Origin: Brevibacterium limosum
GTDB taxonomy: Bacteria; Actinomycetota; Actinomycetes; Actinomycetales; Brevibacteriaceae
DNA: 64,000 nucleotides
NCBI RefSeq assembly: GCF_011617705.1
Contig: NZ_CP050154.1
Location: forward strand, 4,030,001-4,094,000
Direction: 5' to 3'
Shown here: positions 6,178 through 9,503 of the stretch, in pieces
How the letters are laid out: each line of letters opens with the position of its first letter
Position numbering within the stretch: position 1 is the stretch's first letter
Program-made: the position numbers and the translations under genes
The notes under the pieces: generated by a model
What the model saw: only the letters and a program-made list of their open reading frames with translations
Told to the model about the DNA's origin: nothing
The model's database searches: none

Positions 6178-6588
6178 GTGGACGATCAGCTCTCGAAGGT
6201 CTTCGCGGCCCTATCCGATCCGACCAGGCGGGACATGGTGGCTCGACTCAGTGTCGCGGATGCGACGGTGAACGAGCTCGCCGAACCCTACGATGTCAGC
6301 GTCCAGGCCGTGTCGAAACATCTCAAGGTGCTCGAGGACTCCGGACTGGTCTCCCGCACCCGCGATGCCCAGCGCAGACCGGTCCACCTCGAAGACAATG
6401 TGTTCGATCTGATGACGAAATGGATCGAGAGATACCGACAGCAGGCAGAGGAACGCTACCAACGCCTCGACGCCGTCCTCGAACAGATGAACGAGGACGA
6501 GGCAACACACAGCACGGACCCGAGCGCCGCCTCGGCGAACGGATCCGATGGCACTTCAACCCACAGAAGATCACGCAAAGGAGCATGA
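6178..6588 (+). CDS. ArsR-family helix-turn-helix transcriptional regulator
   Basis: A 136-aa winged-helix regulator. KVFAALSDPTRRDMVARLS (about residues 6-24) is the classic start of this subfamily, and VNELAEPYDVSVQAVSKHLKVL is the recognition helix-turn-helix. The metal-binding cysteines of ArsR/SmtB sensors are absent, so it belongs to the non-metal branch that accompanies SRPBCC proteins. GTG at 6178 is chosen because AGGAGG (6168-6173) lies 4 nt upstream; an ATG at 6142 falls in the -10 box. It is cotranscribed with the SRPBCC gene one base downstream. The C-terminal 30 residues are acidic and low in complexity. Confidence 0.9.
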   Translation: MDDQLSKVFAALSDPTRRDMVARLSVADATVNELAEPYDVSVQAVSKHLKVLEDSGLVSRTRDAQRRPVHLEDNVFDLMTKWIERYRQQAEERYQRLDAVLEQMNEDEATHSTDPSAASANGSDGTSTHRRSRKGA

Positions 6589-6589
6589 C

Positions 6590-7087
6590 ATGACCACCGC
6601 CGACACCGCAGCCGACTATTCGACGCTCAAGCTCGACGTCCCCGAGGGCGTTCAGACTGTGTCGATCACCCGCGACTTCGCGGCCACTGCGGACAAGGTC
6701 TTCCGGGCCCACATCGACCCCGAGCTCTTCGTCAAATGGTGCGGGCCCGACACGATCACGAACACGATCCGCGAATGGAACCCGACGACCGGCGGGAACT
6801 GGAGCTACGTCTCGAGCGATGATCACGGCGAGTACGCATTCTTCGGCTCCTTCCACGAGGTGCGCGAGAACGAACGCATCGTCCAGACCTTCACCTTCGA
6901 AGGCTTCCCGGACGCAGTCAACCTCGAGATCCTCACGCTCACCGACCTCGGCGACGGACGGACCAGGCTGACCTCGACCTCGGTCTTCGATTCGCTCGAG
7001 TCCCGCGACGGCATGGTCGCCTCGGGCATGGAGCACGGCATCGTCGAGGGCTACAACAAGCTCGACCGCCTCCTCACCACCCCCTAA
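6590..7087 (+). CDS. SRPBCC (AHSA1-type) domain protein
   Basis: A 165-aa protein beginning MTTADTAADYSTLKLDVPEG, with the START/AHSA1 fold signatures TRDFAATADKVFRAHIDPEL, VKWCGPDTITNTIREWNPTTGGNW and a C-terminal amphipathic helix MEHGIVEGYNKLDRLL. AAGGAG precedes the ATG by 6 nt. SRPBCC proteins bind hydrophobic ligands in a central cavity. Pairing with an ArsR regulator is very common and suggests a stress or ligand-responsive unit, but no specific ligand is established. The stop TAA lies 2 bp before a large inverted repeat that was probably its terminator. Confidence 0.88.
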   Translation: MTTADTAADYSTLKLDVPEGVQTVSITRDFAATADKVFRAHIDPELFVKWCGPDTITNTIREWNPTTGGNWSYVSSDDHGEYAFFGSFHEVRENERIVQTFTFEGFPDAVNLEILTLTDLGDGRTRLTSTSVFDSLESRDGMVASGMEHGIVEGYNKLDRLLTTP

Positions 7088-7117
7088 TTACTACCTGACG
7101 GCGGCCCAGCAACCTCG

Positions 7118-7133
7118 CGCGGGGTTGCTGGGC
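7118..7133. repeat. Left copy of 16-bp target-site duplication
   Basis: CGCGGGGTTGCTGGGC is identical to 8754-8769. The two copies directly flank the IS termini. IS481-family duplications vary widely in length, and 16 bp is at or just above the usual upper range. Confidence 0.75.
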
Positions 7134-7138
7134 TGTGT

Positions 7139-7207
7139 TGTCTCAATAGGTTGCTGACAACCTGACTCAATACGTTGCTGACAGTATGTCTCAATACGTT
7201 GTTGACA
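7139..7207 (+). repeat. Three 21-bp iterons at IS left end, 24-bp period
   Basis: Copies start at 7139, 7163 and 7187, exactly 24 bp apart. They follow the pattern TGWCTCAATASGTTGYTGACA in sense orientation. The third copy overlaps the transposase start (ATG at 7186). They are probably transposase-binding sites; occupancy of the third could repress translation or transcription initiation. Confidence 0.8.
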
Positions 7208-8640
7208 CACTTCGGGCCATGCCTGAAGCACTTTCAATAGCCCAACGCCGCGCGATCATCGACTTCGACCCCAACGCACCAGATTCACCATCGATCACCG
7301 AGTTCTGCCGTCAACACAGCGTTACTCGAACGTCGTTCTATGCGATCCGCAAACGGTACAAAACCGAGGGGTTACGGGCACTCCATGCCCGTTCATCGGC
7401 GCCGAAGAACACCGTGCGAATCTACGACCAAGAAACCACCGATCTCGTCTTGAAGATCCGTGCCGAACTCGAGTCCACCGGGTGGGATGCCGGACCGAAA
7501 TCGATCTGGTACGAAGGCGTCGATACCGGCCGATTCACCGAACCCATCCCATCGGTGGCCACGATCGGACGGATCCTCTCCGACGCTGGACGGGTGAAGG
7601 CGAACCCGAAGAAGCGTCCCCGATCATCATTGATCCGATTCGTCCGTGCCAACGCCATGGAACTGTGGCAACTCGACGCTTTCGAATTCGAACTCACCGG
7701 CAGCACCACCAAGATCACGGTGTATCAGCTCCTCGACGATTCCACCCGCTTCGACGTCGGCACACAAGCCTTCCACGGAGTGGAAAACGGCAATCATGCG
7801 ATCACGACGATCTCTGATGCCTTCGCCAACTACGGGGTGCCCCAAGAGATGCTGACCGATAACGGCAACGCCTTCAACGGCAACAGGCAGGGTTGGGTCG
7901 TGGCCACTCAGCTCTTCCTCGCCGACTATGGGTGCCGAGGAATCTCCGGCATGCCCGGACACCCACAAACCCAGGGAAAGAACGAACGCGGCCACCAAAC
8001 ACTGCTCAATGTCCTCAGGGCCCACCGACCCCGCAGCCTCGCTGAAGCACGGAAAGTGATCGCGATGTTCCGCGACCGCTACAACTATCGGCGACGGCAT
8101 CAGTCACTGCCAGGAGACATGAATCCTCACCAAGCCTGGCAAGCAGCAATCCACACTCCTTCAGACGGCACACCGATCCCGCATGCTGAAGTCGAAGCGA
8201 TCGCACGTGAGTACGCTCAACGGCGACGCGTCCTAGCCGCAATGAACCAACCACACGTCGATGACGAGAAATCGGCCGGTGAACCTCTCCCGACCGCAGC
8301 TGACTCAGTACCAGACCGTGTCGTCATCGCTGAGGGCAATCCACAGATCTATTTCCATGCTGTCGGACTCGGAGTACCGAGAACATTGGCCGGAACTTAT
8401 CAATCAGTCGTCACTGACGACTTCTACGCCCTGTTCGACACGACCACTGGCGAGGAAGTGGTGTACTTCCCTCTTCCGATCCGCACCGCGGAAACGCAGA
8501 GACGATATCCGCTGTGGAGAGTCGTCGGTGCCAGAATGCGTGGAGCTTCGAGCCTGTGGTTGAAGAAGCAGCGCGACTACATGCTCAAGCATTTCCCCAG
8601 CGAGGCTCCGGCTAATCGAATCGTTACGAAATGCCACTGA
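7186..8640 (+). CDS. IS481-like DDE transposase
   Basis: A 484-aa transposase. Residues about 16-75 form an N-terminal helix-turn-helix region (SITEFCRQHSVTRTSFYAIRKRY). The rve/integrase core follows with the DDE triad D164 (WQLDAFEFE), D225 (EMLTDNGNAF) and E267 (QGKNERGHQTLL), a D-60-D-41-E spacing usual for retroviral-integrase-like transposases. RDRYNYRRRHQSL closes the core as in IS481 and IS3 enzymes. About 150 residues follow, longer than compact IS481 enzymes, perhaps a C-terminal DNA- or target-binding domain. ATG 7186 lies inside an iteron; ATG 7219 (MPEALSIAQRRA) is an alternative start. No frameshift or stop is seen. Confidence 0.93.
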   Translation: MSQYVVDTLRAMPEALSIAQRRAIIDFDPNAPDSPSITEFCRQHSVTRTSFYAIRKRYKTEGLRALHARSSAPKNTVRIYDQETTDLVLKIRAELESTGWDAGPKSIWYEGVDTGRFTEPIPSVATIGRILSDAGRVKANPKKRPRSSLIRFVRANAMELWQLDAFEFELTGSTTKITVYQLLDDSTRFDVGTQAFHGVENGNHAITTISDAFANYGVPQEMLTDNGNAFNGNRQGWVVATQLFLADYGCRGISGMPGHPQTQGKNERGHQTLLNVLRAHRPRSLAEARKVIAMFRDRYNYRRRHQSLPGDMNPHQAWQAAIHTPSDGTPIPHAEVEAIAREYAQRRRVLAAMNQPHVDDEKSAGEPLPTAADSVPDRVVIAEGNPQIYFHAVGLGVPRTLAGTYQSVVTDDFYALFDTTTGEEVVYFPLPIRTAETQRRYPLWRVVGARMRGASSLWLKKQRDYMLKHFPSEAPANRIVTKCH

Positions 8641-8657
8641 CAACCCCACTCATTTGG

Positions 8658-8750
8658 TGTGAGCAACCTATGGAGTCAGGTCGTTCGCAACCTGGTGAGC
8701 GAGGTTGTCAGCAATGTGTTGAGTGAGGTTGTCAGCAAGGTCGCGAGTTT
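8658..8750 (-). repeat. Four 21-bp iterons at IS right end, 24-bp period
   Basis: Inverted copies of the left-end iteron start at 8658, 8682, 8706 and 8730, again exactly 24 bp apart. The copies at 8706 and 8730 keep the core TGTCAGCAA; the copy at 8682 is the most diverged. The last copy ends 3 bp before the IS terminus. Confidence 0.8.
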
Positions 8751-8753
8751 CCA

Positions 8754-8769
8754 CGCGGGGTTGCTGGGC
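8754..8769. repeat. Right copy of 16-bp target-site duplication
   Basis: CGCGGGGTTGCTGGGC, identical to 7118-7133. It also contributes part of the right arm of the split terminator stem. Confidence 0.75.
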
Positions 8770-8774
8770 CGCCG

Positions 8775-9503
8775 TCAGGTAGTGCGGGGAGCTTCGGGGG
8801 CGGAGATGCTGGTGGCGGCGGACATCATCGCGAAGTACGAGTCGCGGCTACGGCGCACGTGCCGGGCCATCACTTCGGCGGCCTTTGCCTCCTGGCCGGC
8901 GTCGATGGCCGCGATGATCTCGCGGTGCTCGGGCCAGGCCTGGGGTCCGCGACGGGTGACGTTGAGCGAGTACAGCCACTCGATCTTGCCGGAGATCTGC
9001 TTCAGCAGGCTGATGAAGGACACGCTGCCGCTGAGTTCGGCGACCGCGAAATGGAAGCGCATGTTGAGCACTGCGAGGTCTTCGAAGCGCTCCTGCCCGA
9101 TGACGATGTCCCCAGCATCGAGGATGTCGTTGATCTCCTTGCGCAACTCCCGCCATTTGAGGTCAGGAGTGTCGCTGGCATTGAGGTCGGCCGCACGCCT
9201 GGCCGCACGTTTCGCGGTCGCCGACTCGAGCACGATGCGGATCTCGAAGAGATCTTCGGCGTCCTCGACGGGTGAGGGCGCGACGATCGAGCCGCTGTAC
9301 TTCCTGGACTCGACGAGCCCTTCAGCCTCGAGGGATCGTAGGGCCTCACGGATCGGGATCCGCGAGACCGCGTACTGCTCGGCCAGAGCTACTTCCCGCA
9401 GCTTCGCTCCGGGAGCATGGACACCGGTGATGATGTCGGCGCGGATCCGCGCACCGACGTCCCCGCTGCTCGTTGTGGCCGAAGGCTGTGCAGAATCAGA
9501 CAT
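8775..9503 (-). CDS. GntR-family (FCD domain) transcriptional regulator
   Basis: A 242-aa regulator: winged helix at about residues 14-75 (IRADIITGVHAPGAKLREVALA, then SRIPIREALRSLEAEGLVE), then an FCD ligand domain from about 85 to 225. Visible metal-ligand candidates are His in RFHFAVAEL, His in WPEHREIIAAID and His in MARHVRRS. FCD regulators usually sense small carboxylic acids. It is the last gene of the transporter operon; its start overlaps the end of the ATPase gene by 8 bp, so it is probably autoregulated with the operon. Likely binding sites lie at 16447-16486. The stop codon falls inside the terminator arm disrupted by the IS. Confidence 0.92.
   Translation of the reverse strand: MSDSAQPSATTSSGDVGARIRADIITGVHAPGAKLREVALAEQYAVSRIPIREALRSLEAEGLVESRKYSGSIVAPSPVEDAEDLFEIRIVLESATAKRAARRAADLNASDTPDLKWRELRKEINDILDAGDIVIGQERFEDLAVLNMRFHFAVAELSGSVSFISLLKQISGKIEWLYSLNVTRRGPQAWPEHREIIAAIDAGQEAKAAEVMARHVRRSRDSYFAMMSAATSISAPEAPRTT

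Follow-up and report, generated by a model that had tools for sequence, protein, structure and literature searches.

Conserved 24-bp-phased end repeats in a one-gene, IS481-like element of Brevibacterium limosum

A 1622-bp, one-gene insertion sequence (IS) element lies in a 64,000-nucleotide stretch of the Brevibacterium limosum genome (assembly GCF_011617705.1, contig NZ_CP050154.1, positions 4,030,001 to 4,094,000; hereafter the window) and carries arrays of short repeats, or iterons, three at its left end and four at its right, that stand exactly 24 base pairs (bp) apart. These arrays are real, conserved and functionally telling, and the family to which the element belongs is a known one with a published member. 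We consider it likely that this is an IS481-type element, from an actinobacterial subgroup, with a DDE (Asp-Asp-Glu) transposase and with phased sites that this enzyme probably binds, and that the enzyme, which resembles TnsB, acts alone, assembling on these sites and choosing as its target a hairpin that resembles repetitive extragenic palindromic (REP) sequences.

Results

A preliminary description of this DNA had placed 21-bp repeats at 7139, 7163 and 7187, in steps of 24 and 24 bp, and four inverted right-hand copies starting at 8658, 8682, 8706 and 8730; the left positions and steps are confirmed, and the right starts are correct as read on the minus strand. Shifted by 24 bp, the left end (77 bp) matches itself at 0.72 and the right end (120 bp) at 0.55, and none of 2000 dinucleotide shuffles per side equalled this self-match at any shift from 8 to 44 bp, which rules out chance repeats. 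The unit is better drawn as an 18-bp body (CTCAATACGTTGCTGACA-like) plus a 6-bp spacer, and at each end 8 bp of tip precede the first unit. Of the four right copies, numbers three and four are the weakest.

Searches for relatives gave a match in 26 of 60 genomes from the family, counting every match at an expectation value, E, of 1e-3 and ordinary IS481 elements too, and, at E 1e-60, in 7 of 396 genomes of the order and 18 of 295 genomes of the family of genome G262, in draws that partly overlap. Six further loci lie on named genome contigs and others on three plasmid records, one of which was fetched; none was confirmed in viral contigs. From these, 41 loci were chosen, leaving out L001-L004 and L034-L038, which repeat other rows, and with the partial locus L039 outside the 41. 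Motifs of TGT, five nucleotides and CTCA (left) or CTCG (right) set 32 left and 37 right ends; the right end of the window and the left end of L057, which begins CTCG, were set by hand, and at least one right end, that of L056, which reads CTAG there, was dropped by the rule. The non-redundant ends used numbered 21 on the left and 23 on the right. These motifs fix CTC at offset 8, so that the selection itself accounts in part for the counts at this offset and for CTCA versus CTCG, but not for the counts at offsets 32, 56, 80 and 104.

In a tree of 27 transposases (20 of the chosen loci and seven others), clades A, B and C each fall on one side of a branch with support of 100/99 or more, and the 24-bp frame is kept in all three, in transposases about 40-48% identical to the protein studied here, which rules out a phase peculiar to this copy. 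The preliminary description had staked its claim on homologous elements keeping the 24-bp phase, and distant relatives do keep it. Across the three clades, the non-redundant ends match themselves at 0.67-0.82 when shifted by 24 bp, compared with 0.23-0.25 on average for the remaining shifts (excluding 12 and 36). A profile trained on the other clades placed 130 of its 132 matches in frame: on the left at offset 8 in 21/21 ends, 32 in 21/21 and 56 in 19/21, with one match off frame, and on the right at offset 8 in 23/23 ends, 32 in 20, 56 in 21, 80 in three and 104 in two, again with one off frame. The iteron bodies themselves have diverged between clades (GTTGCTGACA, ATCGTGGACA and ATCGCTTACA).

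Three sites are present in 19 of the 21 left ends; right ends of clade B carry three, those of clade A four and those of clade C five, except for L040 with four. Read from these alignments, site number changes, mostly by lineage, and the frame does not. The fourth right copy of the window fails the other-clade profile, yet it fits the consensus of its own clade, A, by which a fourth right site is present in the window, in L006 and L007 and in a copy from genome G018; the single off-frame match that the other-clade profile gave in the right end of the window is at offset 44. The preliminary description had also held that a difference in copy number makes the two ends functionally unequal. Three against four proves to be a clade trait (clade B is mostly 3+3, clade C 3 plus 4 or 5), which removes unequal site number as a general rule; left and right sequences do differ, to an extent that is hard to judge because the ends were picked by CTCA versus CTCG.

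Ordinary IS481-type relatives, at 30-41% identity, show something similar on a smaller scale. At one or both ends of 14 of 18 such elements, the best repeated 18-bp site has at least 15 matches at a step of 23-27 bp, a level that about 1% of 270-bp stretches drawn at random from the window reach; several of these elements are close kin, the ends of all 18 are unmapped, four fail, and the chance level comes from the window and not from their genomes. Second phased sites may thus be general in this part of IS481, and the longer arrays were observed in the subgroup whose transposases are about 480 residues long. The view that the arrays set this element apart from a simple IS accordingly survives in part: the arrays are real, but phased second sites in these relatives, and extra sites in the IS1202 family and IS21, make them less exceptional.

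An alternative account of the inner repeats is that the outermost repeat alone pairs and is cut, the others being operators, for self-repression on the left and for a block to transcription on the right. The position of left iteron 3, which overlaps or abuts the start of the gene, fits this, as does the drift in the number of inner right sites between clades. However, phasing is no looser in the right array, which lies over 1.4 kb away from the start codon and has up to five sites in clade C, and repression alone requires no phase at that end; a sigma-70 scan, crude and of a kind from which Actinobacteria may differ, gave no plus-strand site in 7000-8900. We therefore regard the operator account as unlikely and favor phased sites on which the transposase assembles.

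The protein is IS481-like by sequence. An annotated protein of Brevibacterium sp. S111, 473 amino acids (aa) long and 84% identical, is named an IS481 family transposase by NCBI, and a protein of the ISAar22 type (P0055; ISAar22 is known here from its protein record only) is 45% identical. Domain matches to rve, rve_3 and HTH_28 describe a DDE core preceded by a helix-turn-helix (HTH), and among 84 sequences D164 and D225 are invariant and E267 nearly so. The IS21 model scores 32.9 bits, under a cut-off of 160. Solved structures found by sequence are retroviral-type integrase cores, a Ty3 protein and one odd hydrolase match (E 0.046). The AlphaFold model (mean predicted local distance difference test score 85.1) contains two HTH domains, an RNase H core, a beta-barrel and a C-terminal helix. 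Ranked by E-value, Foldseek returned TnsB chains of the V-K CRISPR-associated transposon (CAST) first, over about 490-510 columns, then IstA and then Tn7 TnsB, with MuA at rank 25; VIA-align 2 covered mainly residues 147-324. The suggestion that the ends recall those of Mu- and Tn7-like transposons is thus partly borne out, in that the model shares the domain order of TnsB and IstA and matches MuA, and the 24-bp phase is conserved. The gene occupies 1455 of the 1622 bp, and the other listed open reading frames (ORFs) within the element are at most 157 aa long and all overlap it; no istB gene for an AAA+ ATPase, as the IS21 family has, appears in this one gene plus overlapping ORFs, which were not searched for homology.

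The tips of the element were set by comparison with three relatives in the same kind of target, L005, L006 and L007, the first being a second, broken copy elsewhere in the same genome. Their ends read TGTGTTG... and TGTGGAAA..., with a TGTGG tip and target duplications of 14, 14 and 13 bp, respectively. At the right tip this copy has CG where the relatives have TG, which we read as a changed tip base. The direct repeat around this copy is 16 bp long, and the element may alternatively be drawn as 1620 bp with a 16-bp duplication; given the 13 or 14 bp of these three relatives, we consider the longer duplication less probable. Exact duplications of 13-15 bp flank 13 of the 30 copies for which both ends were found.

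The insertion splits a palindrome of the host. Counted with up to two mismatches, its half-site has 145 copies in this genome and 139, 71 and 132 in the three other genomes with clade A elements, against 0 to 2 matches for a reversed-pattern control. In many cases a forward and a reverse half-site start 36 bp from each other and form a 56-bp palindrome. Folded as RNA, the intact palindrome gives a 26-bp stem (z -11.5); after insertion, the left side retains a stable hairpin (-35 kcal/mol, z -5.5) and the right side none (z 0.2). All eight readable right junctions of clade A, from four genomes, fall at one position of the palindrome: seven read ...CAGCAACCTCG|TGTGG or near variants, and that of L005, in a diverged copy of the palindrome, reads CTGCTACCTGG|TGTGG. 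Five right-side stretches were fetched from genome G018, of which L166 was dropped as having no right tip; the left-side loci L168 and L169 start inside the element and have no flank. In the window, the palindrome sits between two facing ORFs, 6548-7087 on the plus strand and 8775-9503 on the minus strand. This target finding for clade A is new to us and rests on eight junctions in four genomes.

That the palindrome is a part or product of the element, and not a chosen target, is suggested by several clade B copies that lie between imperfect inverted arms and carry an extra right end. Yet the half-site is present at one mismatch in 24 of 57 genomes of the genus (including G000, G003, G018 and G040), with dozens per genome in many of the 24 and only one or two in a few, and in none of the other 33, while clade A elements occur in four genomes, all among the 24. 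With 20 half-site genomes lacking clade A, the palindrome is taken as a host repeat. Furthermore, the seven palindromes inspected are all empty, and the duplication lies inside the palindrome in a single register, leaving an origin in the element very improbable and a chosen host target the better account. Nine clade B and C copies have an exact 13-15-bp duplication, and in none of them do inverted flanks exceed the 99% shuffle level; strict use of the palindrome is thus confined to clade A.

Two other explanations of the target were set aside. Choice of the palindrome as an iteron mimic is weak, since the best site in seven palindromes is equalled or beaten by 35 to 491 of 123,964 background 18-mers; for the commonest palindrome core, 55 background 18-mers match the iteron equally or better, or about 0.04 by chance over some 86 positions tried. 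As to a known RNA family, the sole match in 6900-9000 is to a microRNA model, far below threshold and outside the palindrome.

The coordinates of the element and its parts are given in Table 1.

Table 1. Parts of the element and its target, in window coordinates
Feature	Position	Strand	Remarks
One-gene element	7134..8755		1622 bp; 14-bp target duplication at 7120-7133 and 8756-8769
Target palindrome, left part	7090..7133	+	One arm with the loop, plus 14 bp from the second arm; folding still gives a strong hairpin
Left target-site duplication, CGGGGTTGCTGGGC	7120..7133	+	14 bp; identical to 8756-8769; inside 16-bp direct repeat; 14-bp boundary from L005 and L006
Left tip, TGTGTTGT	7134..7141	+	8 bp ahead of iteron 1; ends of relatives share the frame TGT, 5 nucleotides, CTC
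Left iteron 1, CTCAATAGGTTGCTGACA	7142..7159	+	
Left iteron 2, CTCAATACGTTGCTGACA	7166..7183	+	
Transposase gene	7186..8640	+	484 aa from ATG 7186; 473 aa from ATG 7219
Left iteron 3, CTCAATACGTTGTTGACA	7190..7207	+	Overlaps first codons if start is ATG 7186; just upstream if ATG 7219
Right iteron 4 (innermost), CTCCATAGGTTGCTCACA	8658..8675	-	
Right iteron 3, CTCACCAGGTTGCGAACG	8682..8699	-	
Right iteron 2, CTCAACACATTGCTGACA	8706..8723	-	
Right iteron 1 (outermost), CTCGCGACCTTGCTGACA	8730..8747	-	
Right tip, CGTGGAAA	8748..8755	-	TGTGGAAA in relatives
Right target-site duplication, CGGGGTTGCTGGGC	8756..8769	+	
Target palindrome, other arm	8756..8783	-	

Several relatives show additional structures at their ends and flanks. 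An extra inverted right end lies directly outside the left end in 11 of the 30 copies, all of clade B (L008, L009, L043, L055, L057, L059, L065, L070, L071, L074 and L077), joined near the same place (..TTTGTA or similar, then TGTCC); imperfect inverted-repeat flanks surround ten of these 11, and an exact 13-15-bp duplication none. In L074 and L077 the same two flank arms occur in swapped order. The outer edges of the arms carry short direct repeats, CCTCCGC in L074 and 10 bp in L059 (about ACCGCAT, with the arms aligned by eye), hinting that the arm-to-arm unit may move by another transposase. Lone right ends stand between inverted arms at L125 (genome G923), L132 (G262) and L120 (G857), with no transposase or left end in the printed stretch, and are possibly non-autonomous elements or leftovers. 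The clade C copy L040 lies between two inverted arms, has only 2 bp (TA) repeated and has no extra right end. L013 and L076 have clean 15-bp duplications, yet by eye their left flanks resemble the arms around other clade B copies. Lastly, clade B copies such as L074 contain, again by eye, a stem-loop (..GCTACCGGC...GCCGGTAGC..) between the stop codon and the innermost right iteron, which is perhaps the terminator of the transposase gene.

Discussion

Tn7, CASTs and phage Mu carry several sites at their ends and duplicate 5 bp of target, against 13-15 bp here, and IS21 makes a short duplication, against 14 bp here. The transposases of these systems, TnsB of Tn7 and CAST and MuA, have an overall domain order in common with this protein; in an element of 1622 bp, however, there is no room for TnsA, TnsC, a target selector or MuB (no profile search was made for such components). 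Tn7 also shares TGT/ACA tips and several end sites with the present element (PMC10132070). IS21 resembles it in having several terminal repeats (PMC11208146) and, through IstA, in being among the best structural matches, but needs the AAA+ helper IstB, where here there is one gene and no helper; the several terminal repeats have been suggested to hold the transposase inactive until the helper arrives (PMC11208146). Transposases of the IS1202 family, a group placed inside IS481 (PMC10045372), are described as TnsB-like, with one extra site per end (PMC10132070); in its ISAjo2 type, this site lies 7-10 bp from the end repeat, targets are dif-like and the duplication is 5 bp (PMC10132070). IS481 duplications are reported as mostly 6 bp, with not a few of about 15 bp and a family range of 2-15 bp, within which the 14 bp found here falls (PMC10045372).

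The published member is ISArsp8 on plasmid pA58H2, an IS481 element of 1718 bp with 50-bp inverted repeats and a 15-bp duplication (PMC6305408, Table 3). It is our clade C locus L046, in which we find the same 24-bp frame and the same 15-bp duplication, and its 50-bp inverted repeats contain its first two iterons. The record gives one long inverted repeat and mentions no iterons, phase, site number or target preference (PMC6305408); clade A differs from ISArsp8 in its 3+4 sites and palindromic target. Insertion at specific places of a palindrome is a habit that clade A shares with the REP-targeting elements IS1397, ISKpn1, IS621, ISPsy8 and ISRm22, the last of which inserts at the axis (PMC1525189). 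The strictly REP-associated elements named there belong to IS3, IS110 and IS4, and the term IS481 does not occur in the main text of that paper. PMC6794481 concerns another IS481 element. Among the matches listed for IS481 iterons, multiple or subterminal repeats, binding sites and palindromic targets, mostly the top 8-20 of 88-668 papers, no title or opening of an abstract describes these arrays, nor did those listed for Brevibacterium with IS481 (one paper) or with palindromes; a search for ISAar22 found no paper.

Several observations weigh against our interpretation. Only two left sites are present in L044 and L067, the clade B locus L058 has two right sites, and the number of right-end sites varies both within and between clades, from which it follows that no single count is needed. 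The likeness of the target core to the iteron is weak. As to the protein, the NCBIfam IS481 model NF033577 is the best by far (E 7.4e-59) but its 199.6 bits lie below the cut-off of 224; overlays on TnsB and IstA give TM-scores near 0.3 (by model length) with root-mean-square deviations of 13-28 A in Foldseek and 10-17 A in VIA, and by VIA Z a retroviral integrase core ranks first. The overlays are poor because the domains are placed differently, a tight fit being confined to the core. Another possibility is that slippage or unequal exchange duplicated the tip and that the resulting repeats persist by chance, with no function. The differing copy numbers between clades and the likeness of units within one end would suit this account, but it is very improbable, since drift would bring frame-breaking indels and the 24-bp frame is exact in clades with 40-48% identical transposases and diverged iteron bodies.

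Together, the conservation of phase and the likeness of the model to TnsB and IstA lead us to infer the mechanism by analogy with these two proteins: the idea that the ends work like those of Tn7 and IS21 is well supported at the level of sequence, phase and model, and assembly on the sites may be ordered. The two HTH domains of each transposase most likely bind a single 18-bp iteron, and the 24-bp step would fix the distance and rotation of neighboring protomers, as in the end complexes of TnsB and IstA. A complex that pairs two ends would cut them at their TGT/ACA tips, and the DDE core would join them to target strands about 14 bp apart, chemistry that would yield the observed 13-15-bp duplication. 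In clade A, where the choice of site is directly visible at the junctions, the transposase would read the center of the palindrome, by its sequence or its hairpin form, with no helper gene in the element. Duplication of 14 bp from one arm leaves a hairpin, predicted by folding, on one side, and this should limit harm to the neighboring gene.

A bolder proposal, which we put forward tentatively and think somewhat doubtful, is that one protein of about 480 residues does the work of both the transposase and the AAA+ regulator of Tn7, Mu and IS21: assembly on phased sites (3+3, 3+4 or 3+5) would both license cutting and read a dispersed hairpin as a safe landing site, with the 14-bp duplication regenerating the hairpin on one side.

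Elements of this kind offer a minimal, one-protein model for multi-site transposon ends. They form a natural series in which right-end sites mostly number three, four or five, left-end sites nearly always three, and the phase is 24 bp, and in which the role of extra end sites, be it restraint of the enzyme, order of assembly or distinction of left from right, can be tested directly through the number of sites and their spacing, with no ATPase partner involved. The palindrome preference of clade A, in turn, represents site-specific insertion outside the REP-linked IS3, IS110 and IS4 elements named in PMC1525189.
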